Below the pieces are notes generated by a model. The model did no database searches, was not told where the DNA came from, and saw nothing but the letters and a program-made list of their open reading frames with translations. The position numbers and the translations under genes were made by a program. 37,332 bases of DNA from a virus: the IMG/VR virus record IMGVR_UViG_3300009103_000080, positions 1 through 37,332 of that record. One strand, written 5' to 3'. Of this stretch, positions 29,161-37,127 are shown in pieces. Position 1 is the first letter of the stretch. Every line of letters starts with the position of its first letter.

Positions 29161-29565
29161 CTAAAACGGAACGTCGTCATCGTGGTAGGGATTAGTCGCA
29201 GGGCCGACGCGACCGGTCCTGTGCGGGTCCCTGTCATGCGACTGCTTCCGGCGCGCTGCCTCCTCATCCCTCTCGCAGAACCACCACCTGGCGAACTTGA
29301 TGGTGGCTGTCTTTTGCTTTCGGCCGTCCTTCTCCCACTCGTCATAGGTCAGCCGCCCTCCCGTGATGAGGATGAGGCTGCCTTTTTTGAAGTAGCGGCA
29401 GATGTTCTCCGCTGCCTCTTCCCAGAACTCGACCCGGTGCCAGTCAGTCCTGTCTTCCCTACGTCGCGACTCGCCGACGCTGATGGTCACGACCTTCTTT
29501 CCCGACTTGGTCTTCCTTAGCTCCGGGTCTGCACCCAGACGCCCCATGATGAAGACTTGATTCAT
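29161..29565 (-). CDS. ssb: Single-stranded DNA-binding protein
   Basis: 134 residues. An OB-fold start MNQVFIMGRLGADPELRKTKSGKKVVTISV and the WHRVEFWEEAAENICRYFKKGSLILITGGRL region are standard SSB. The disordered tail ends DDDVPF, the acidic tip that binds partner proteins in bacterial SSBs. It protects ssDNA in replication and ERF-mediated annealing. The start overlaps the end of the upstream ribbon-helix-helix gene, so the two are coupled. Confidence 0.92.
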   Translation of the reverse strand: MNQVFIMGRLGADPELRKTKSGKKVVTISVGESRRREDRTDWHRVEFWEEAAENICRYFKKGSLILITGGRLTYDEWEKDGRKQKTATIKFARWWFCERDEEAARRKQSHDRDPHRTGRVGPATNPYHDDDVPF

Positions 29566-29798
29566 TTGAGATCTCCCCTTCGTGTTAAGAACCCCATCTC
29601 TATGAGGTGTCGTCTTAGCAGTGCATTGATTAGGCTCGACTGCGATGTGGTTGCGCCCAGGCTATTGGAGTTAACGTCCTCCAGGTAGCGGTTCAACCCG
29701 TCCTTGAGGACAGGCGTGGTACGCAGCTGGATGCGTATGTTGCCATCGGCTGCGTCCTTTGGGGGCCGACCGGGCCCACGCTTCGCCGTCTTTGTCAT
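29562..29798 (-). CDS. Ribbon-helix-helix DNA-binding protein with AT-hook-like arm
   Basis: 78 residues. A basic N-terminal arm with KRGPGRPPK, close to the AT-hook core, is followed by strand NIRIQLRTT and two helices (VLKDGLNRYLEDVN; SQSSLINALLRRHLIEMG), the Arc/CopG pattern. It could act as a repressor of its own operon or bind the repeat array at the left end. That is inference; no target can be read from the sequence. AAGGAGGAGAG precedes the ATG, and it sits between the ERF and SSB genes with ATGA overlaps on both sides. Confidence 0.65.
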   Translation of the reverse strand: MTKTAKRGPGRPPKDAADGNIRIQLRTTPVLKDGLNRYLEDVNSNSLGATTSQSSLINALLRRHLIEMGFLTRRGDLK

Positions 29799-30484
29799 GG
29801 TCTCTCCTCCTTCCAGTCAAGGAATTGTCCTCTCAGGTCACCCCCATGGTGAAGCCTCTCTATGAAGTCATCGCGTCGAGCCTGGGTTAGCTGCGTAGGC
29901 CTGGGCCATCCCTTGTGGGCACACCAGTCCTTCAGTTCGCCGTAGTCGAGGGCCACGGCTTCGCTATTGAGTATCGCAAAGAACCTTGGCTGGTCATGCT
30001 CGAAGCTCGGATGGTGCTCCCCCTCCCTCTCCCCCTTAGGGGGGAGGGTTGGGGGAGGGGGCTCATCCTGCCTACCGTTGCCATCCCGGTATCCGCTGCT
30101 CTTCATCGCAGCCTCACCGTCGTCGTCCCTGGTGTCGCAGAGAGCGAAGAGCTGTCCAAGGCCATACCGTCTAGCGTAAGTCACCGCTGAGCCCATCCCC
30201 TGGCTATCGCTCTTGCCGTAGAGCAACTCTACCCGGGTGCTCAGAGACTGACCGCTCTCAGCATGGACAACCTCGGTGACACACACCGGCCCGTGTTCAC
30301 CCTTCTCCTGGTGGTGGTAGACGAGCAGCCCGAACTCATTAGCGCCACGCACCACGCTTGTCAGGTCTTCGAGGGTGATGTAGTTGGAGCCAAAGTGAGG
30401 GTTCTTACCGCCCTTCTTCACCCCTGGGTTGGTTGATTGGAAGGCCAGCATGGCCTTGAATAGCTCAGGTCCTGGGTTGTTCAT
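29795..30484 (-). CDS. erf: ERF-family single-strand annealing protein
   Basis: 229 residues; promotes annealing of complementary strands in phage recombination and genome circularisation. The core (about 1-125) has the ERF hallmark MGSAVTYARRYGLGQLFAL (about 97-115) followed by the DDDGEA motif (120-125). Residues about 141-158 are a Pro/Gly/Glu-rich segment (PPPPTLPPKGEREG) encoded by a C-rich/G-rich palindrome, apparently inserted in frame in the linker. The C-terminal part (about 165-229) is helical. It lies directly upstream of RHH and SSB genes, the usual recombination set. Confidence 0.85.
   Translation of the reverse strand: MNNPGPELFKAMLAFQSTNPGVKKGGKNPHFGSNYITLEDLTSVVRGANEFGLLVYHHQEKGEHGPVCVTEVVHAESGQSLSTRVELLYGKSDSQGMGSAVTYARRYGLGQLFALCDTRDDDGEAAMKSSGYRDGNGRQDEPPPPTLPPKGEREGEHHPSFEHDQPRFFAILNSEAVALDYGELKDWCAHKGWPRPTQLTQARRDDFIERLHHGGDLRGQFLDWKEERP
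30015..30064. repeat. C-rich/G-rich palindromic element inside erf
   Basis: The top strand reads C5-T-C3-TCT-C5, TTA, then G6-A-G3-TT-G5-A-G5 (30019-30061). The arms CCCTCTCCCCC and GGGGGGAGGG pair across TTA. The right side has four G runs with 1-2 nt loops, a strong G-quadruplex pattern at 30039-30061 on the strand opposite the erf message. It resembles short palindromic elements of bacterial genomes that insert in intergenic space or in frame in genes. Confidence 0.6.
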
Positions 30485-30599
30485 CGTTCTCCTCCTCCAT
30501 CCTTCGGATGTATTCGTCTTGTTCTTCGTAGTGGTGCATCAGCAGTCGCTCCTCCTCTTCGGTTAGGTTGGCCCACCAGGGCTCTTCAGTTGCCGCCAT
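30465..30599 (-). CDS. Small acidic protein (44 aa)
   Basis: The ATG at 30599 overlaps the stop of the preceding gene (TGATG), with a GGGGGG/GGTGGG tract upstream. The frame runs to a TGA at 30465-30467, inside the start of erf. The protein is Glu-rich and aromatic (TEEPWWANLTEEEERLLMHHYEEQDEYIRRMEEEN), one likely helix. Translational coupling on both sides is the main evidence that it is real. It may be a small partner of ERF; no family known. Confidence 0.5.
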   Translation of the reverse strand: MAATEEPWWANLTEEEERLLMHHYEEQDEYIRRMEEENDEQPRT

Positions 30600-31018
30600 C
30601 ACCCACCCCCCGGTGGCAGACTAGTGTCGCACCCAGATAGATAGACGCCATCAACCCGCCATTTCCTGTCAACGAACGCCCTCCTCTTCTCCCAGGCCTT
30701 CGCCTCTGCCACCGGCTTTGCCTCCATGACGAGGGTGCGATGGTTTCTGCCGTTCAGCACCAGCAGGATGTCGTCTTTGCGCCTGCCATAGAGCTTGTGC
30801 TGCCAGGTCGTCACCCTGAGCAGGCTGGGTGGCAGAAACTCGCAACGATGTTCCATCCATTCCACAGAGCACATACGGCGAGCATGCGCTTCCCACTTTT
30901 CCGCGTCGGTGCGCAGGATTGAACGCGCTGCGCGGAGGGCGTCCCTCTTGGTCCTGTGGAAGGTGACCAGCTCTGTCTTGTTGCCATCCCACAGCTCATT
31001 CACACTATAGACATGCAT
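30599..31018 (-). CDS. Hypothetical protein
   Basis: 139 residues from the ATG overlapping the upstream stop (TGATG). It is basic, with a helix (TKRDALRAARSILRTDAEKWEAHARRM), a strand region (KLYGRRKDDILLVLNGRNHRTLVMEAKPV) and a charged end. The LVMEAKP-type segment loosely recalls E-x-K strand motifs of PD-(D/E)XK nucleases, but a full active site is not evident, so a nuclease role is only a thought. Position between the Gp157-like and ERF genes suggests DNA metabolism. Confidence 0.5.
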   Translation of the reverse strand: MHVYSVNELWDGNKTELVTFHRTKRDALRAARSILRTDAEKWEAHARRMCSVEWMEHRCEFLPPSLLRVTTWQHKLYGRRKDDILLVLNGRNHRTLVMEAKPVAEAKAWEKRRAFVDRKWRVDGVYLSGCDTSLPPGGG

Positions 31019-31587
31019 CACTCCCCCTCCTCGGCCTTGGCCTTGCCCAGTGAAACGAATACGGTCTTGGTGTCGGTACGCTCGATGCCTGGCACGTCCT
31101 CGCCTGCCTTGAGCGCCTTGACGACGCTGACCTTGTCGAGCCTGGGGTCAGCCTCGATGACGAAGCGGTCAGGCAGCGCGTTCCAGTCGGTCACCTTCAC
31201 CTCCATCTTGTCACGCGTGTTGATGCGTACGTAAGAGCCGTCGGGTGTGTTGATGCGGCTCTCACCCGTGGCCTCGGCGTGTGCCGTGAGCAGGTGCTTG
31301 AGCAGGTCCTTGAGCCTCTCGACGTCGCGCTTTGACGCCTTGATTGCTCTGTCCACTCGCGCCTTCAATGCCTTGTGGCGTGTGGCCTCGGATGTCTTGA
31401 CGTCGATGACGCACCTGATGGCCCACGCCTTGTCGGCTATCTCTTTGTCGAGCTTGTCGACGACGTCCCTGAAGTCTTGCCAGTCGTCGTCTGTGATCTC
31501 TCCATCACTGTCACCCAGCTCAGTGAGCATGTGTGCCAGGTCTTGTGCAGTGGCGACGATTTCCCACGTGGTTCTACGCTTACTCAT
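31018..31587 (-). CDS. Gp157-like (siphovirus Gp157 family) protein
   Basis: 189 residues from the ATG with AAGGAGAG upstream; a longer frame to 31752 runs over the upstream gene. Two long helices (about 15-120) are followed by a beta-strand part: GESRINTPDGSYVRINTRDKMEVKV, then WNALPDRFVIEADPRLDKVSVVKALKAGEDVPGIERTDTKTVFV. The latter has the 'P.rF....rlDK..i.k.lk.Ge.vpG' pattern of the Gp157 family, which is found next to SSB and annealing genes in many phages. Its biochemical role is unclear; it is commonly placed with recombination functions. Confidence 0.7.
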   Translation of the reverse strand: MSKRRTTWEIVATAQDLAHMLTELGDSDGEITDDDWQDFRDVVDKLDKEIADKAWAIRCVIDVKTSEATRHKALKARVDRAIKASKRDVERLKDLLKHLLTAHAEATGESRINTPDGSYVRINTRDKMEVKVTDWNALPDRFVIEADPRLDKVSVVKALKAGEDVPGIERTDTKTVFVSLGKAKAEEGE

Positions 31588-31853
31588 GAGTCTCTCCTTT
31601 GCCACCCATGGGTGGTCATGGTGGGTGGCTGTATGTGGTCGGTCTTTCGTGTGATCCACTTGTATGAGCTTGGGTCGGATGCGCTGCGAGACCGACACCA
31701 CCAATGCTCTGGTATTCCTACTCGCAACCCGGCCTTCCGACACCGGCTCCATGCCTCAGCGCGTGATACGTGGCGTCCGCCTGGGAGTGTTGACTTCATC
31801 TCGAAGGACCATCGCCCTGCTGCCAGGGCGGAGTGGGGAGGGTTGTGGGTCAT
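31584..31853 (-). CDS. Small hypothetical protein rich in Trp/Arg/Ser
   Basis: 89 residues, tiled by ATGA overlaps at both ends with neighbouring genes and preceded by GGGGGAGAAGG. It is basic, with five tryptophans and a SRAEAWSRCRKAGLRVGIPEHWW helix. No family recognised. The support is the coupled arrangement. Confidence 0.45.
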   Translation of the reverse strand: MTHNPPHSALAAGRWSFEMKSTLPGGRHVSRAEAWSRCRKAGLRVGIPEHWWCRSRSASDPSSYKWITRKTDHIQPPTMTTHGWQRRDS

Positions 31854-32263
31854 GCCTTCTCCCCCACGCCGAGGCTACTCATGGCCTCATCGAGGGCATC
31901 GCTCATTCTGCGCGACAGTTCGTATGAGTTGATGCCCTTTCGCTCCACAGCGCGGCATGCTGCCTCTAGTTCGGCCTCGCCGAGCATGAACTCCTCACAC
32001 GCAGCGAGTGGAGCCCGAACCACGTCGAGGCGCTGTTCTGACGTGGCTTGCAGCCATCTGAGCGCAGCGGTGACGACCTCTGTTACGACACAGATGTGCC
32101 ACTCGTCCGTCTCTCCGTCTAGCTCTTTGGCTCGCTGTGCCTCGACCCCTTCGATGGTCGTGGGCAGTGGCGCGTCGTTAACGATGGTGCCGATATTGAA
32201 TTGAATCCACGTGAGTCCCACTTCGATGCAGCGGTCATCATCCCAATAGCTCTTGGTTAACAC
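31850..32263 (-). CDS. Hypothetical protein
   Basis: 137 residues if the GTG at 32263 is used. That start is chosen because the 28-nt block immediately upstream, carrying AGGAGAG, is identical to the one before the next gene; a longer frame from 32353 would overlap the upstream gene by 64 bp. The protein is acidic, with a beta-rich start (YWDDDRCIEVGLTWIQFNIG) and a helical remainder (ACEEFMLGEAELEAACRAVERKG). Family unknown. Confidence 0.55.
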   Translation of the reverse strand: MLTKSYWDDDRCIEVGLTWIQFNIGTIVNDAPLPTTIEGVEAQRAKELDGETDEWHICVVTEVVTAALRWLQATSEQRLDVVRAPLAACEEFMLGEAELEAACRAVERKGINSYELSRRMSDALDEAMSSLGVGEKA

Positions 32264-32290
32264 GGTCTCTCCTGGTTGTAGGTACTGGGT
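32263..32290 (-). repeat. 28-nt repeat carrying the ribosome-binding site, copy 1
   Basis: Identical over 28 nt to 32809-32836. On the minus strand it reads ACCCAGTACCTACAACC then AGGAGAGACCG, ending at the start codon. It overlaps the end of the upstream gene, which finishes at 32290. Confidence 0.85.
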
Positions 32291-32808
32291 TAGGTGTTGG
32301 TTGAGGCCTGGGCAACCCCTGCATCGAGGCGACCCTGTAGCCACGTGCGCCATATAGTAATGTGCGCGAGGGTCATCTCATCGTATGCTTCAGGGACATC
32401 TGCCTCGTTTGAGTACAGGGTCACCTCATCGTGAGAGGCATGGTCTGGCACCACCCACTTCGCAAGGGCCATGAGTTGCTCAACGTGTGTCCTACGATGC
32501 GCCTCAAACATGGCGTCGTTGAAGAGCGTAGACAGCGCTCGCTCTAACTGAGGCATGGTCCATCCCGGTCGCAGTGACCTCGACTTTCCCCACGGGCTAA
32601 GGTCATCGCCGCAATGGCCTATCCTCACGCGCAAAACGACGCCACCCGACAGCCCTTCTCTGTTGGCGCAACGCCTGATGGTGAAGTCTCCAGCACCATA
32701 TGAGCCAAGCCGGATGCAGAAATGGGATGGTCGGCCATCTTCCCGCAGGGCATTGGCCATCTGGCGGCCTCGCGCTCCACTCAATATGTTGTGAGGTCTT
32801 CTGGGCAT
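32290..32808 (-). CDS. Hypothetical protein
   Basis: 172 residues from the ATG at 32808, chosen because it follows the repeated AGGAGAG cassette; the frame continues to 32871 without support. Basic, Arg-rich N-terminal part with three cysteines (FCIRLGSYG, RRCANREG, IGHCGDDL), then an acidic helical C-terminal part with aromatic residues (WTMPQLERALSTLFNDAMFEAHRR; ITIWRTWLQGRLD). No family recognised. Confidence 0.5.
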   Translation of the reverse strand: MPRRPHNILSGARGRQMANALREDGRPSHFCIRLGSYGAGDFTIRRCANREGLSGGVVLRVRIGHCGDDLSPWGKSRSLRPGWTMPQLERALSTLFNDAMFEAHRRTHVEQLMALAKWVVPDHASHDEVTLYSNEADVPEAYDEMTLAHITIWRTWLQGRLDAGVAQASTNT

Positions 32809-32836
32809 CGGTCTCTCCTGGTTGTAGGTACTGGGT
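32809..32836 (-). repeat. 28-nt repeat carrying the ribosome-binding site, copy 2
   Basis: Second perfect copy of the start cassette (see 32263-32290), directly in front of the ATG at 32808. Two neighbouring unrelated genes thus share the same 28-nt leader. Confidence 0.85.
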
Positions 32837-32846
32837 AAATCGTTGT

Positions 32847-32886
32847 TAGCACGGCTCGTTTCGTTAGTCAACAGGGAGCCGTGCTA
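32847..32886. other. Perfect 11-bp inverted repeat between two leftward genes
   Basis: TAGCACGGCTC (32847-32857) and GAGCCGTGCTA (32876-32886) pair perfectly around an 18-nt spacer. The right arm includes the stop codon of the winged-helix gene. No T run follows on the minus strand. It could be an operator, an RNA-processing site or a weak terminator. Confidence 0.55.
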
Positions 32887-33255
32887 CTCCTCGCTGCCAC
32901 ATCTCCACTTTGCATCGGGCCATTCGGGCCAGTCATCGAGTAGCGTCAGCTGTGTTGGCTCTGGCTCGACGTAGACCCAAACGGTGGCACCTCGACCGCT
33001 GCGAGTGCGACGTCTGTTGCCGCTATCCCGCACCTTGCCGGCCCGCACAAGCTCCCATCGGCGAGCGCTGGCTGTCTGGTGACGCATCCCGGTGACCGCC
33101 TCTATCTCGTCGTCGGTGAGCCCTCGCGGCCCCGCGTCTATGATGAGCTTGAGCACCTTGGTGCGTAGCGTTGGCGCGCTCGTCGTCATCGATTCAGCCG
33201 CTGCCCTGCTCGTGTCAGAGCCTCGCACGCTGGGTGGTTTGCCGTTGTAAGTCAT
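32884..33255 (-). CDS. Winged helix-turn-helix protein
   Basis: 123 residues. GSDTSRAAAESM near the start, then a winged-helix pattern at about 30-95: LRTKVLKLIIDAG, LTDDEIEAVTGM, RHQTASARRWELVRAGKV, and a basic wing RRRTRSGRGATVWVYV. I recognise this arrangement from many phage genomes, where it is annotated as wHTH DNA-binding. An acidic, Trp-rich tail follows. AGGGGAGAC precedes the ATG. It probably regulates transcription or replication, and the repeats at the left end or the inverted repeat at its own 3' end are possible targets. Confidence 0.7.
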   Translation of the reverse strand: MTYNGKPPSVRGSDTSRAAAESMTTSAPTLRTKVLKLIIDAGPRGLTDDEIEAVTGMRHQTASARRWELVRAGKVRDSGNRRRTRSGRGATVWVYVEPEPTQLTLLDDWPEWPDAKWRCGSEE

Positions 33256-33266
33256 GTCTCCCCTTT

Positions 33267-33530
33267 TTAGAATGATTCAATCAGAGTCGGCCCGTCGCTC
33301 ACGTCGACATCGATTATCCGCGCATCACACTGGTATCCCGCGTCGACGGTGAACGTCACCACGCCGGGCCATGTGCGCTCGGTCGCGCCCTTCATGTCTC
33401 GCATCAAGGCCTCGGCCTCGTCTGGGCCTATGGGCCCGACGACCTTAACCGTCACAGTGCATTCCATCAGGCACTCAAACACGTACTCCTGCTCCGGTGG
33501 TGGCTCTGGTGGTTCGCGTGGGTATGTCAT
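33267..33530 (-). CDS. Hypothetical acidic protein
   Basis: 87 residues from the ATG at 33530, which overlaps the preceding stop (ATGA); a longer frame to 33569 is not supported. Pro-rich start (REPPEPPPEQEY), then alternating strands and one helix (VVGPIGPDEAEALMRDMKG) giving an alpha/beta fold of about 70 residues. No family recognised. Confidence 0.5.
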   Translation of the reverse strand: MTYPREPPEPPPEQEYVFECLMECTVTVKVVGPIGPDEAEALMRDMKGATERTWPGVVTFTVDAGYQCDARIIDVDVSDGPTLIESF

Positions 33531-33616
33531 GCCCAGTCCTCCTCGCCCTGCCTCTTCGCCTCTTCCCACGCGTCGAGGGCCACTTTCAGGGCTGCTTTCA
33601 ATTGTTCGTCTGTCAT
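33527..33616 (-). CDS. Very small helical protein (29 aa)
   Basis: The ATG at 33616 is preceded by GGGGAGGGATGAGACG, a version of the start cassette used by its neighbours. The product is a single charged helix (TDEQLKAALKVALDAWEEAKRQ). It ends in an ATGA overlap with the next gene. Real translation is plausible but the short size keeps confidence low. Confidence 0.4.
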   Translation of the reverse strand: MTDEQLKAALKVALDAWEEAKRQGEEDWA

Positions 33617-33620
33617 CGTC

Positions 33621-33812
33621 TCATCCCTCCCCTGGGTTGCGCACGTTCTCGACGCATGCGCTTTGCTCGATGTCGACGTAGTCCTCGTCGATGGGGCCCG
33701 CGTTCGCGTCGATGTATTCGACGATGTCGGGAATGGCCTGATGCAGTGCGTCGAGAAGCCGGCTCGGGTCATGGTCACAAGTGACTTCAATCGACAGTCT
33801 ATACGTTGTCAT
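33621..33812 (-). CDS. Small acidic hypothetical protein
   Basis: 63 residues from the ATG at 33812, preceded by AGGAGGGATGAGACC. Start strand TTYRLSIEVTCD, helix PSRLLDALHQAIPDIVEYI, then an acidic end. A longer frame to 33884 lies in the upstream gene. Function unknown. Confidence 0.5.
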   Translation of the reverse strand: MTTYRLSIEVTCDHDPSRLLDALHQAIPDIVEYIDANAGPIDEDYVDIEQSACVENVRNPGEG

Positions 33813-33816
33813 GGTC

Positions 33817-34068
33817 TCATCCCTCCTGAAAGCCCCAGTAGTAGCGGGGGCGGTGTTGAAAGTAGAGGCTGCCGCGTTGGCCATCGGCCTTGCGTGTCAC
33901 CACAATGAACGGGGCTCCAAAGCTGTGAGCGATGAAGTCGCGGGTCATCTCCTCAGTGCTCCACACTTGGCCATGTTTGGCTTCGAGTGTGGCGCGTTCG
34001 GCCGCCTCGGCGTTGATGCGTGCTTGCTCAGCACGTCGGATGGTCTCGGTTGGGTCGGTCGTTGTCAT
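33817..34068 (-). CDS. Hypothetical protein of a phage-recurrent type
   Basis: 83 residues from the ATG at 34068, which follows AAGGAGATGAGACC. Helical first half (TETIRRAEQARINAEAAERATLEAK), then WSTEEMTRDFIAHSFGAPFIVVTRKADGQRGSLYFQHRPRYYWGF, a segment whose APF-VVV-RK-DG-GSL-F-H-PR-Y pattern I have seen in unrelated phage small proteins. Function is not known. Confidence 0.6.
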   Translation of the reverse strand: MTTTDPTETIRRAEQARINAEAAERATLEAKHGQVWSTEEMTRDFIAHSFGAPFIVVTRKADGQRGSLYFQHRPRYYWGFQEG

Positions 34069-34094
34069 GGTCTCATCTCCTTTGGGTTGCTGGT

Positions 34095-34262
34095 CTATAT
34101 CAGGCCAGCCAAGATTAGCGGTGACACCAGCCGGCCGGTGTCGCATTCGGGGCACGGGCTGTCCGCGTCCGGCTCGATGCGGGCGCTGTAGTCGCACGCG
34201 GTACAGTCAACGTCGGCTGCGCCCTCGCTCATGATTTGCTCAAAGTATTGGAAGTCTTCCAT
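34095..34262 (-). CDS. Small zinc-ribbon protein (55 aa)
   Basis: The ATG at 34262 follows AAGGAGATGAGACC, and the frame ends at a TAG at 34095-34097. The protein has two CxxC pairs, CTAC (20-23) and CPEC (37-40), 13 residues apart, the layout of a short zinc ribbon. Such proteins often touch DNA, RNA or polymerase. It is shorter than a usual gene-finding cutoff but has the same start cassette as its neighbours. Confidence 0.6.
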   Translation of the reverse strand: MEDFQYFEQIMSEGAADVDCTACDYSARIEPDADSPCPECDTGRLVSPLILAGLI

Positions 34263-34295
34263 GGTCTCATCTCCTTGGGTTGCTGGGTTGCTGGT

Positions 34296-34994
34296 CTAGT
34301 GGGACACAATTGCGATGTCTCGGCGCTTGTCGTCGTCACCCTTGCGACCGTTGCATAGGTTGCACTTGGCGCACGTTGTGAGCGCTCCCGCCTCTTTCGA
34401 CGCTGGGCACAGGACTTCGCCTGGCTCTAGCTCGCCCACGTCCGATATGATGCGAAAGGTTCGGTACCCTCGGCCCCTGGCTTCTAGGCGCTCGGCCTGA
34501 GTATGTACGCTCGCCATGACTGACAGGTGGAGTAAGACATCGCGCCACTGATGAGAGTACCCAGTGCCCTTTGATAGCTTGACAGGCTTCCACACTCGCG
34601 CCGGCACTGCGGCCGGGTCACCATATGAACCACGCCTGACGCGACGACCGCCAACAAGCGCGGTCACGGCTTCAGGGGGCGTTACTGGCAGGTCGCGGTT
34701 AGCCTTCCACGTCGCACGCGGAGCTTGAAACGTCTTTACGTAGCACGGTTTAGCCTCGACTGGCCGCGCCTTGTGAAGCAAGGGGCGCAATGGACACCGG
34801 CCACAGACGCTAGCATCTGCGCCCGTTTTTTGTGCCACGTGCGGTGGTACGTCATAGCGCATAATCCAAGTCTGGAGCATGTCGCCCGTCTTCGTATTCT
34901 TACTAGATTGGCGCAGTCCTGTCAGCAGGACGATGATGCGCTCACCGTCTAGCTCGGATGGCCCATCATATAGTTTGATTGTGTTCGGTCTCAT
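34296..34994 (-). CDS. Cys-rich hypothetical phage protein
   Basis: 232 residues. IVLLTGLRQSSKNTKTGDMLQTWIM near the start, CGRCPLRP (about 65-72), PCYVKTFQAPRATW, GSYGDPAAVPARVW, YSHQWRDV, and a C-terminal CPASKEAGALTTCAKCNLCNG (about 195-215) followed by RRDIAIVSH. The cysteine sets suggest one or two metal sites. I recall similar proteins in other phages with the same motif order, but cannot name the function. The leader contains a run of CAACCCAACAACCC repeats. Confidence 0.65.
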   Translation of the reverse strand: MRPNTIKLYDGPSELDGERIIVLLTGLRQSSKNTKTGDMLQTWIMRYDVPPHVAQKTGADASVCGRCPLRPLLHKARPVEAKPCYVKTFQAPRATWKANRDLPVTPPEAVTALVGGRRVRRGSYGDPAAVPARVWKPVKLSKGTGYSHQWRDVLLHLSVMASVHTQAERLEARGRGYRTFRIISDVGELEPGEVLCPASKEAGALTTCAKCNLCNGRKGDDDKRRDIAIVSH

Positions 34995-35038
34995 GGGGTA
35001 GCGACTCCCGGTTAGGTGTTGGGTTGTTGGGTTGCCAG

Positions 35039-35608
35039 TTAGTTGTCACTCGTGAGCATTCCCAGCTCATTTAGCGTGCCGATTAGCTCCTCGTCGGATG
35101 GGCTCATGTCATGCTCGCTATACCATTGGAGCGCGCTCATCACTTCGCCCGCGTCAAAGGTTGCTTCGTTGATTTCCTGGTAGGTCTCGCCGCCCCCCGC
35201 AATGTCGCGAGCTAGGCAACTAGTGGCCACGCGGTGACACTCTGACTCAACCCACTCGGAGTGCTCGTCATATTCGAGCGCGGAGTGGTGCCCGTCATCC
35301 AGCACGGGGTAGTCCGACAAGGCGGCGGCCATATCTTCCGCGTCGCTTGCGGCCCCTGACTCTGGCCTAACCAGGATGACTTCAAGCCAACCACATGCCC
35401 AGTGTCCGAACCTATGGACCTCATGGTCTTCACCGTCAGGGTCAACGCCCTCAAGCGATTGGCTCGCGACTGTGAAGTTGGACCGTTCAAGCGGGCCAGA
35501 GTCCCGATTCTGTCCAATAAACACAAGCCAATCTTGACGGTCAGGCAGCCCTAGGCCACGCGCATCGAATCCGGTTGGACGAAACTCGCTGTATTTTTGC
35601 ATGCTCAT
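35039..35608 (-). CDS. Hypothetical phage protein of a recurrent acidic type
   Basis: 189 residues from the ATG at 35608, with AAGAGG upstream; the longer frame to 35854 contains a low-complexity stretch that overlaps other genes. DWLVFIGQNRDSGPLERSNF, VHRFGHWACGWLEVILVRP and DYPVLDDGHHSALEYDEHSEWVESEC are characteristic of a phage protein I have seen in several genomes without known role. Acidic throughout, no signal peptide. The start overlaps the end of the small membrane protein gene. Confidence 0.6.
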   Translation of the reverse strand: MSMQKYSEFRPTGFDARGLGLPDRQDWLVFIGQNRDSGPLERSNFTVASQSLEGVDPDGEDHEVHRFGHWACGWLEVILVRPESGAASDAEDMAAALSDYPVLDDGHHSALEYDEHSEWVESECHRVATSCLARDIAGGGETYQEINEATFDAGEVMSALQWYSEHDMSPSDEELIGTLNELGMLTSDN

Positions 35609-35724
35609 CTTGTGACCTCTTGAGTTGTGGTGGTGGTGATGGGCTGTGCTCGCACGGCCTGGCCCATTGCGACTACGTAGAACGTCACCAGCACGATGGT
35701 TAGGGCTCGGATGTCGATTGTCAT
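35605..35724 (-). CDS. Tiny membrane or secreted protein (39 aa)
   Basis: The ATG at 35724 has AGGAGC upstream within the CAACCC-type leader. Residues about 6-22 (RALTIVLVTFYVVAMGQ) form a hydrophobic helix, followed by AVRA-QP, a possible signal peptidase site, and a Thr-rich end. It ends in an ATGA overlap. It may be a membrane-anchored regulator or exclusion protein; nothing is diagnostic. Confidence 0.45.
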   Translation of the reverse strand: MTIDIRALTIVLVTFYVVAMGQAVRAQPITTTTTQEVTR

Positions 35725-35807
35725 TGGGTTGCTCCTGTGGGTTGTTGGGTTCGGACTCTCGGTCCAGCGCTCGACGGTGAGGTCCAGTGCTGACCCTAGG
35801 GCCCGAG

Positions 35808-36062
35808 CTAGTCGATGGATGACCACTCGTCAGCATAGACGGCCACGTACCCATTTTGCGTGGACGCTAGGTGAGTGGGAGCGCCCCATCCAAGGGACTC
35901 GCCAAGTGCGACGGCCGCCGCTGCGTGGTTGTCTGCGGCGTTTAGCGCATGGTCCCAGGGTGTTATTGTGCGCTTTGCATCGCACCTAGCGACGATGCGA
36001 GCACCCTTGTGGTTGGTCGGTCCAAGGTACTTCGTTTCGATTGCCTGGCGTGGTGATAGCAT
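35808..36062 (-). CDS. Small conserved-type hypothetical phage protein
   Basis: 84 residues preceded by TGGAGATGAGACT. AIETKYLGPTNHKGARIVARCDAKRTITPWDHALNAADNHAAAAVALGESLGW is a pattern I have seen in small proteins of many phages and some prophages, with a conserved start (AIETKYL-PTN--G-R). One beta sheet and one helix are predicted. Function unknown. Confidence 0.65.
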   Translation of the reverse strand: MLSPRQAIETKYLGPTNHKGARIVARCDAKRTITPWDHALNAADNHAAAAVALGESLGWGAPTHLASTQNGYVAVYADEWSSID

Positions 36063-36095
36063 AGTCTCATCTCCATTGGATTGTTGGGTTGTCGG

Positions 36096-36476
36096 TTACT
36101 GTGACTTGATTCCATGAGAAAGAGCTGCCGACTCGTCGCTGTCTGTGGTTGCCGAGCGCCTGATCAGGCAGAGTGTGCCGTCGCCTCTCAGGGAGTAGCG
36201 CCGGGCACCGTGCCGACCGTAGACCACGCCGCCCATTGCGTAGATTGCGGCATCGTCGCCGTCGCGCTCTGCGTCACCAGAGTCCAGGTAGGCCACAAGT
36301 GCGCGCCAGGCCTGTTCTAGCGTTCCGGCGAGCGCTTGTGCTGAGCTGCGGTGCTCGTCCGGCAGGTAGCGCCAGCAAGACTCTCGGTCATCACCCTCTA
36401 GCGCTGTCAACGCTTTCTCAAGCCGTGCGCGCTGCCGTGCTCGACACCACGGGCAGGTCACCAAGTGGGTGCTCAT
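36096..36476 (-). CDS. Hypothetical protein with N-terminal CxxC
   Basis: 126 residues with AAGGAGG before the ATG. CPWCRARQRARLEKAL starts the protein, then a helical part (SAQALAGTLEQAWRALVAYLDSGDAERDG) and a beta-rich part (AIYAMGGVVYGRHGARRYSLRGDGTLCLIRR). A single CxxC pair is not enough for a zinc finger unless it dimerises. No family recognised. Confidence 0.5.
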   Translation of the reverse strand: MSTHLVTCPWCRARQRARLEKALTALEGDDRESCWRYLPDEHRSSAQALAGTLEQAWRALVAYLDSGDAERDGDDAAIYAMGGVVYGRHGARRYSLRGDGTLCLIRRSATTDSDESAALSHGIKSQ

Positions 36477-36503
36477 GTCGTGCCTCCTTGTTGGGTTGTC
36501 GGT

Positions 36504-36707
36504 CTAGTGGCGAGGACACGGGCCAGCGAGCGCCACCGCGTTGACCATCGTCGCGTGTCGGTCCCCGACCTTCCGAGCGTAAGAGAGGCGCTCGGCGACG
36601 AGCGCTCGCTCGTCCGGTGTCAGTGGGTGCCAGATGAGGCACCGGCACTTGTTCTCGACGACGGTGTCTCGGTCATTCGTTGGATTCGTTGTGTCGTTCG
36701 TGGTCAT
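36504..36707 (-). CDS. Small hypothetical protein, first of the leftward operon
   Basis: 67 residues from the ATG at 36707, preceded by AAGGAAC; the longer frame to 36746 has no support. Thr/Asn-rich start, then KCRCLIWHPLTPDERALVAERLSYARKVGDRH. As the first gene after the leader it would be the earliest translated. Function unknown. Confidence 0.5.
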   Translation of the reverse strand: MTTNDTTNPTNDRDTVVENKCRCLIWHPLTPDERALVAERLSYARKVGDRHATMVNAVALAGPCPRH

Positions 36708-37127
36708 ATTGTTCCTTGGGTCAGGGGTTATCTCGCATCGGAGCACAACGGACCCACAGCAGCTAGCCGTTGGCCTGTGCTGCGTTGGTTGTGCGCCAAT
36801 GTGAGACTCCGAACAGCTGCTCGGAATCCCTAAGCACCCGTCACGGTGCCACGCGTTGACGGTCCGGGCTCCAAACCCTCGACCGTCTCACTTGCCCGGC
36901 TACAGCCTTTCACTGCGTCGGACCTCACCCACACCACACACGGGGTCTGCTACACCACGCATATCCTGGGTCGTTCTGTGGGGTGACCAGTCCCGCTTGT
37001 GGTCTAGCGGTGCTACCGCCTGCTCCTAATGGGTTTGGGTTGTTGGGTTCGTTCTGTGCTGTGTCTTGGGTTGTCCGACCAAAACGAGCGACGCAAACAA
37101 AGGCGGCCGATTGACTCGAACAAACAC
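36708..37127 (-). other. Hairpin-rich untranslated leader of the leftward operon
   Basis: No credible gene on either strand. Perfect stems occur at GCACAAC/GTTGTGC (36743-36749, 36788-36794), TCCGA/TCGGA (36808-36812, 36821-36825), GCACC/GGTGC (36834-36838, 36845-36849), GACGGTC/GACCGTC (36858-36864, 36881-36887) and GCGGT/ACCGC (near 37007-37019). Four stems in 145 nt suggest a structured leader RNA or an origin-type region. A CAACCCAACAACCC start cassette with AGGAG but no ATG lies near 37025-37055. Confidence 0.45.

Follow-up and report, generated by a model that had tools for sequence, protein, structure and literature searches.

The DNA analysed here is a metagenomic virus contig of 37,332 bp (IMG/VR record IMGVR_UViG_3300009103_000080; hereafter the window), whose genes are arranged in two arms. 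The rightward arm encodes a helicase, terminase, portal, major head protein, internal virion protein and an endolysin-like protein; the leftward arm, at ~29.1 to 36.7 kb, encodes a single-strand DNA-binding protein (SSB), an Erf protein, a Gam/Gp157-like protein and numerous small unknown genes, and is best explained as a polycistronic, early-type unit. At 8–12 of the ~22 starts in this arm, i.e. fewer than the 'most' claimed in an earlier note on the same sequence, a recurrent cassette precedes the start codon. It is made up of a C/A-rich linker, an extended Shine–Dalgarno (SD) sequence (AAGGAGaTGA) and a conserved spacer that reaches up to the start codon. All sites cited in the earlier note were found and are listed here together with related leaders:

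36477..36512, minus strand: CAACCC-type linker with a different core, ACAACCCAACAAGGAGGCACGAC-ATG
36063..36098, minus strand: cassette of gene 36062..35808, CAACCCAACAATCCAATGGAGATGAGACT-ATG, with GGAGATGAGACT-ATG at 36062
35725..35760, minus strand: CAACCC-type linker with a different core, GAACCCAACAACCCACAGGAGCAACCCA-ATG
34995..35034, minus strand: slot-specific leader, CAACCCAACAACCCAACACCTAACCGGGAGTCGCTACCCC-ATG, common to relatives that hold DUF7227 or GP88 proteins there
34263..34298, minus strand: full cassette, reaching from a stop codon up to the start, TAGACCAGCAACCCAGCAACCCAAGGAGATGAGACC-ATG, with GGAGATGAGACC-ATG at 34262
34069..34097, minus strand: cassette, TAGACCAGCAACCCAAAGGAGATGAGACC-ATG, with GGAGATGAGACC-ATG at 34068
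33813..33829, minus strand: cassette core including the TGA stop of the preceding gene, CAGGAGGGATGAGACC-ATG, with AGGAGGGATGAGACC-ATG at 33812
33617..33640, minus strand: cassette including the TGA stop of the preceding gene, CAACCCAGGGGAGGGATGAGACG-ATG, with GGGGAGGGATGAGACG-ATG at 33616
33531..33550, minus strand: second cassette type, GGCGAGGAGGACTGGGC-ATGA, made of the last codons of the upstream gene (GEEDWA-stop)
32809..32839, minus strand: cassette variant, ACCCAGTACCTACAACCAGGAGAGACCG-ATG, with GGAGAGACCG-ATG at 32808, which includes GGAGAGACC
32264..32292, minus strand: cassette variant, ACCCAGTACCTACAACCAGGAGAGACC-GTG, with GGAGAGACC-GTG at 32263
29799..29814, minus strand: cassette core without linker, GGAAGGAGGAGAGACC-ATG, with GGAGAGACC at 29798

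The core GGAG(A/G)(T)GAGAC(C/G/T) stands at 8 leftward-arm starts, 6 of which share one register, and a CAACCC-type linker at about nine (9/21 leaders). Linker and core are separable: 33812 and 29798 have no linker, while 36476, 35724 and 34994 combine the linker with a different core. At 33812 and 33616 the cassette takes in the stop codon that ends the preceding gene, the 27-nt stretch ACCCAGTACCTACAACCAGGAGAGACC is identical at 32808 and 32263, and the 55-aa gene 34262..34095 is bracketed by copies at 34263 and 34069.

This conservation clearly exceeds that of an ordinary SD sequence. With up to two mismatches, CAACCCAACAACCC has 6 matches in the window against 0.28 expected (0/100 shuffles get to 6), five of them in the leftward arm, including one at 37037 in that arm's non-coding head; GGAGATGAGACCATG with up to three mismatches has 8 against 1.1 expected (likewise 0/100 shuffles). 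When a position matrix was built from the six in-register sites, its top six matches on both strands were these same sites, every one at a minus-strand start, with leave-one-out ranks of 1–16 among 74,632 positions. Total information content at −20 to −1 is 7.7 bits for leftward and 3.4 bits for rightward leaders of the window. At least 14 of 20 bases are identical in 6/210 leftward leader pairs, where column permutation, a null that preserves the SD sequence, gives a mean of 0.34 and reaches 6 in 0/1000 cases; the rightward count is 1/351. In pairs matched for their SD sequence, spacer identity is 56% leftward within genomes versus 26% rightward, so that conservation is not confined to the positions pairing with the 16S tail. 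Permutation nulls and SD-matched spacers thus uphold the claim of conservation beyond a normal SD sequence, and the claim that the cassette belongs to leftward genes stands as well, since equal conservation was sought at rightward starts and found at none.

Further evidence comes from related phages. None of 50,697 phage records is a near DNA relative of the window, and a terminase search for the host among 84,980 prokaryote genomes gave no match, but the terminase did lead to relatives at 65–72% identity, and those contigs that are long enough hold the corresponding leftward arm. By the similarity of these relatives' terminases to marine phages, the group is apparently marine. Eight arms were read beside that of the window, namely those of the terminase relatives (G001, G005, G007, G008, G011 and G012) and of L129 and L133, both found via their GP88 gene. 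All genomes are metagenomic contigs, several of them fragmentary, and because they are related, counts across genomes are not independent events. Genes were called with a home-made caller, which misplaced a few starts (e.g. 32808, called at 32556). Leaders were compared both with automated calls blind to the SD sequence and with an SD-aware caller that treats both strands equally. With either set of calls, near-identical leader pairs exceed the permutations on the leftward side only; leftward sharing is reached by 0/1000 permutations in 6/7 genomes, the exception being G005. The C/A-rich linker motif occurs in 49/176 leftward versus 5/235 rightward leaders. The same pair test gives 0–1 pairs in lambda, 26 in the cluster K phage Anaya (null 0.63), a positive control with known start-associated sequences, and 9 in T7 (null 0.9). 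Other routes to relatives added little: an exact-pattern scan of IMG/VR for the linker plus GGAGATGAGACCATG found only two contigs, both without the repeated linker–cassette pattern, the Gam-like protein (Sipho_Gp157 in Pfam) led only to distant loci, and searches for further copies of the 34262 gene and of a 151-aa gene of L129 gave nothing new.

The eight related phages have their own cassette versions, e.g. GAGAGGACAGC, GGGGGATGAG and GAGGGCTAGACA. These include the following:

G001: TAACCCATACCAGCAAGGAGTGAGAACG, TAACCCAAGGAGATGAGACG and GAGGAGGGCTAGACA
G007, G008, G011 and G012: AACCCACTAACCCAAGAGAGGACAGC and CAAGGGGGATGAG
L133: CCATGACCGGAGAGCTAGAACC and GAGACAGGAGCTAGAAACG
L129: ACAACCAAGGAGAGCAACCC

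Within genomes, 14 or more of 20 bases agree in 36 leftward pairs, and in 35/36 the proteins are non-homologous, the single homologous pair being G001 11683/11965 (43%). Identity in sharing pairs starts to rise at about −20 and reaches 97–100% between −3 and −7. As it drops within the first few bases past the start codon, to background level by about +7, the cassette ends at that codon. Sharing genes are adjacent in G001, G012, G011 and G007 (p below 0.01), with a mean distance of 1.46 genes in G001 (p<0.001). Moreover, 20/170 leftward junctions but 0/224 rightward ones hold a gene bracketed by two copies of one cassette (Fisher 3e-8). In G007, G008 and G011, the sequence of the second cassette type (33531..33550) also precedes a different gene, of 26 aa. 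More generally, GEEDWA-stop codons of different genes double as start leaders for the genes that follow (window 33531–33616; G007, G008, G011, G012, G005); as these gene ends coincide with the next leader, the C-terminus travels with it. Between G011 9012 and G008 1308, similarity is confined to a 24-residue stretch.

Comparison between genomes adds gene replacement to this picture. Among non-homologous leftward pairs from different genomes, 100/8932 are identical at 15 or more of 20 positions versus 2.3 in the null (maximum 8); the rightward count is 16/22,844, some of these being apparent miscalls of one place. In 13 leftward comparisons both flanking leaders are conserved while the enclosed gene is non-homologous, which is seen in none of the rightward comparisons, where conserved leader pairs enclose homologues in 96/96 cases (leftward–rightward contrast 5e-11). 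G001 gene 14393, which sits between two identical cassette copies, is absent from G005. The clearest swap concerns a slot whose leader, AACCCAACAA-GGGAGT(C/A)GCTACCC, is constant across relatives:

34994..34296, minus strand: swapped slot gene of the window, encoding a phrog_2554 protein

In its place G001 and G007 hold a DUF7227 protein and G005, G008, G011, G012, L129 and L133 a GP88 protein. By profile comparison (hhalign, with shallow alignments), DUF7227 and phrog_2554 are remotely related (98%) and GP88 is related to neither; since proteins of all three kinds end in histidine in most members, a very remote relation of GP88 is possible. The nearest homologues of the window's phrog_2554 protein (64%) belong to other phages and stand behind a different leader, and a search with phrog_2554 led to phages of different organisation with different leaders. 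A hairpin in the slot leader GGGAGTCGCTACCC was considered and rejected because, judged by eye, it is not conserved in G007.

Cassettes do not simply accompany their genes. L129 and L133 share a 755-bp block at ~96% identity, which starts at an ATG, ends within the next cassette and contains the 151-aa gene (protein 94.7%) and ~300 bp of non-coding DNA. Outside the block, identity is ~80% in the 3' end of the preceding gene, and the following sequence is unrelated. The whole block looks recently transferred. The cassettes flanking it are 19–20/20 alike within each phage but only 10/20 between the phages, i.e. the block is shared while the cassettes are genome-specific, and the cassette here therefore follows the genome, not the gene. 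The same holds for the orthologues G001 13933 versus G008 1308 and G007 3643 versus L133 6189. There are counter-cases, in which orthologues have kept their leader: G001 14115, G005 36232 and window 34262, the core of which is retained in G001 and G005. The non-coding stretch after the 151-aa gene (L129 1294–1595; L133 2858–3156) is ~97% identical in phages that are otherwise distant; its folding z is only −1.6, and it has no Rfam match.

Overall, we consider it fairly probable from these comparisons that the cassettes are translation leaders which are locally homogenised and act as junctions where small genes are gained, lost or swapped. Each cassette would comprise the stop codon upstream, in many cases a C/A-rich linker, the extended SD sequence and a spacer of fixed length to the start codon. 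Conversion or annealing between copies may homogenise them locally, and the copies may provide the short homology through which small genes get inserted, deleted or swapped, with an incoming gene receiving a working start signal at once. The idea of module exchange put forward in the earlier note fits these swapped and bracketed genes well. The weakest step is that two proteins encoded in the same arm might drive this exchange:

29795..30484, minus strand: Erf-like single-strand annealing recombinase (phrog_2324, E 6e-28), a candidate exchange agent
29161..29565, minus strand: SSB (phrog_44, E 1e-30), a possible partner of Erf

They are candidates because Erf-type recombinases act on short, diverged homologies (PMC3945230). 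Several points weigh against homogenised leaders as junctions. Sharing genes are not significantly adjacent in the window alone (p 0.087) or in G008. Plain homologous exchange via the cassettes is insufficient for the L129/L133 block, because both cassettes differ; it is most simply accounted for by a transfer with subsequent homogenisation. The evidence consists of comparisons between metagenomic contigs, the gene calls rest on a home-made caller, and the shared sequence is in part an ordinary SD sequence under selection.

Could the cassettes instead be sites at which a phage or host RNA-binding protein, or an RNA, controls how the arm is translated, making it a regulon? The fixed register to the start codon, the restriction to the non-structural arm and the conservation of non-SD positions would all suit such a factor. 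One factor, however, predicts one consensus per genome, whereas different cassettes coexist in local blocks (at least three types in G001), orthologues switch type between genomes, and the slot leader GGGAGTCGCTACCC is constant while neighbouring leaders change. We therefore regard a regulon as unlikely, and of the coordinated translation control envisaged in the earlier note the one-factor version is weakened. A general role in efficient translation, with a strong SD sequence and an open leader, is likely, although strictly speaking this would not be regulation. Leftward SD duplexes are stronger than rightward ones (−9.2 versus −7.3 kcal/mol) and leftward leaders are less structured (−9.0 versus −12.0 kcal/mol), the latter being an effect of base composition, as shuffles do as well.

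These same properties, and the fact that AAGGAGaTGA is a near-full complement of the 16S tail, could reflect mere strong selection for an efficient ribosome-binding site in an open leader, i.e. convergence on an optimum. Yet non-pairing spacer and linker positions are conserved too, as the SD-matched spacers show, the SD-keeping permutation nulls are exceeded, and an optimum should neither differ among close relatives nor shift block-wise along the arm; convergence alone thus seems to us improbable. It is more doubtful still that tandem gene duplication left the repeated leaders behind while the coding parts diverged past recognition: sharing genes are neighbours and G001 11683/11965 are homologous, but the other 35 pairs lack homology, coding identity is at background almost from the start codon, and leaders would have to stay frozen and yet differ between orthologues. 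That the cassettes are promoters, comparable to those beside the ribosome-binding sites of T7, which also exceeds the null in the leader test with some pairs promoter-associated, is hardly credible given the fixed distance to the start codon, the location within the coding end of the preceding gene, promoter-like sites of the sigma-70 type at chance level and the lack of a single-subunit RNA polymerase in the set of proteins searched.

Locally homogenised leaders have partial counterparts in known systems. The start-associated sequences (SAS) of cluster K mycobacteriophages have a single consensus throughout the cluster, GGGATAGGAGCCC, and about half of them have upstream inverted repeats, ESAS (PMC3203893, PMC12699233). 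Like SAS, the cassettes are short, asymmetric, GGAG-containing sequences directly before start codons in one orientation, which the matrix scan confirmed, they sometimes include the upstream stop codon, and they occur before different gene families in the non-structural part only (Erf, SSB, Gam-like and small genes in the leftward arm, none in the structural arm), with conservation going beyond SD pairing. Unlike SAS, they come in several versions per genome, which neighbours share and in which relatives differ, they have a C/A-rich linker, and they lack inverted repeats; SAS copies are dispersed (2/68 adjacent junctions share), whereas cassettes of the window type are shared by neighbours. 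With up to two mismatches, the SAS consensus matches the window three times, at chance level and never immediately ahead of a called start, and no pair of ESAS-type 17-bp inverted repeats lies near the window's cassettes. With the consensus at chance, such repeats absent and no single consensus, the likeness to cluster K suggested in the earlier note holds in idea, whereas membership in SAS is unsupported.

The T4-type promoter early stem-loop (PeSL; Arbiol 2010, Comeau 2014) is described as a mobile promoter–terminator cassette, and similarly a repeated intergenic regulatory sequence thought to mediate the shuffling of small genes (PMC4503421). The shuffling would be paralleled here by 13 swaps and 20 bracketed genes leftward and none rightward. 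As translation-start leaders without promoter or stem-loop, however, the cassettes differ from PeSL as far as described there: promoter-like sites, in a scan covering sigma-70-type promoters, and terminator-like sites were neither above chance nor located at A-type cassettes. Thus, the cassettes are SAS-like in position and PeSL-like in gene shuffling, but members of neither. Short-homology exchange with an Erf-like protein and SSB also fits the mosaicism of phages with Erf or Red-beta (Rad52-like) recombinases, although dedicated repeated start cassettes are not described in the accessible part of that account (PMC3945230). Our search of the open literature, subscription papers being outside its scope, turned up no account of start cassettes that are genome-specific and locally homogenised.

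It has long been asked how phages acquire or exchange individual small genes so precisely at their boundaries. The question becomes testable here because the leaders mark the boundaries, differ among relatives and in several cases follow the genome rather than the gene. As a tentative and rather doubtful generalization, a broader phage gene-exchange system might exist, in which each lineage maintains its own stop–leader–start cassettes by ectopic conversion, foreign small genes click in between copies and are expressed at once, and the cassette is rewritten to the recipient's version. In any case, leaders shared by phage genes need not imply a shared regulator, and the cassettes are a handle for the correct annotation of start codons in such genomes.

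Other contigs also repeat leaders before several genes, GGAGGTGC-ATGATG in L140 and AGAGGAACAC(CAC)-ATG in L139. Two phrog_2554 carriers of another lineage, L012 (282–317, 2947–2982, 4187–4222) and L006 (near 9385, 9985 and 10770), repeat leaders of their own (GGTGTAACTATG and GGAG-TGCAACTATG), hinting that start cassettes may be more widespread.

A few observations concern RNA structure. G008 has a type II hammerhead ribozyme (Rfam RF02276, 42.9 bits; L121 11316–11401) that separates leftward genes and immediately precedes a GAGAGGACAGC cassette. It may process the mRNA right ahead of that leader. An Rfam scan of the window gave no significant match. The non-coding head of its leftward arm (36745–37045, minus strand) folds far more stably than its shuffles (−133.8 kcal/mol, z −3.8, 0/100 shuffles), matches no Rfam family and is a candidate structured RNA of unknown kind; the corresponding position is also non-coding in relatives (e.g. 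L079 3400–4200 and L094 2850–4300, minus strand). Finally, in the region of the Erf gene (window 30019–30061), a GC-rich inverted repeat, CCCCCTCCCTCTCCCC / GGGTTGGGGGAGGGGG, encodes a proline-rich stretch.

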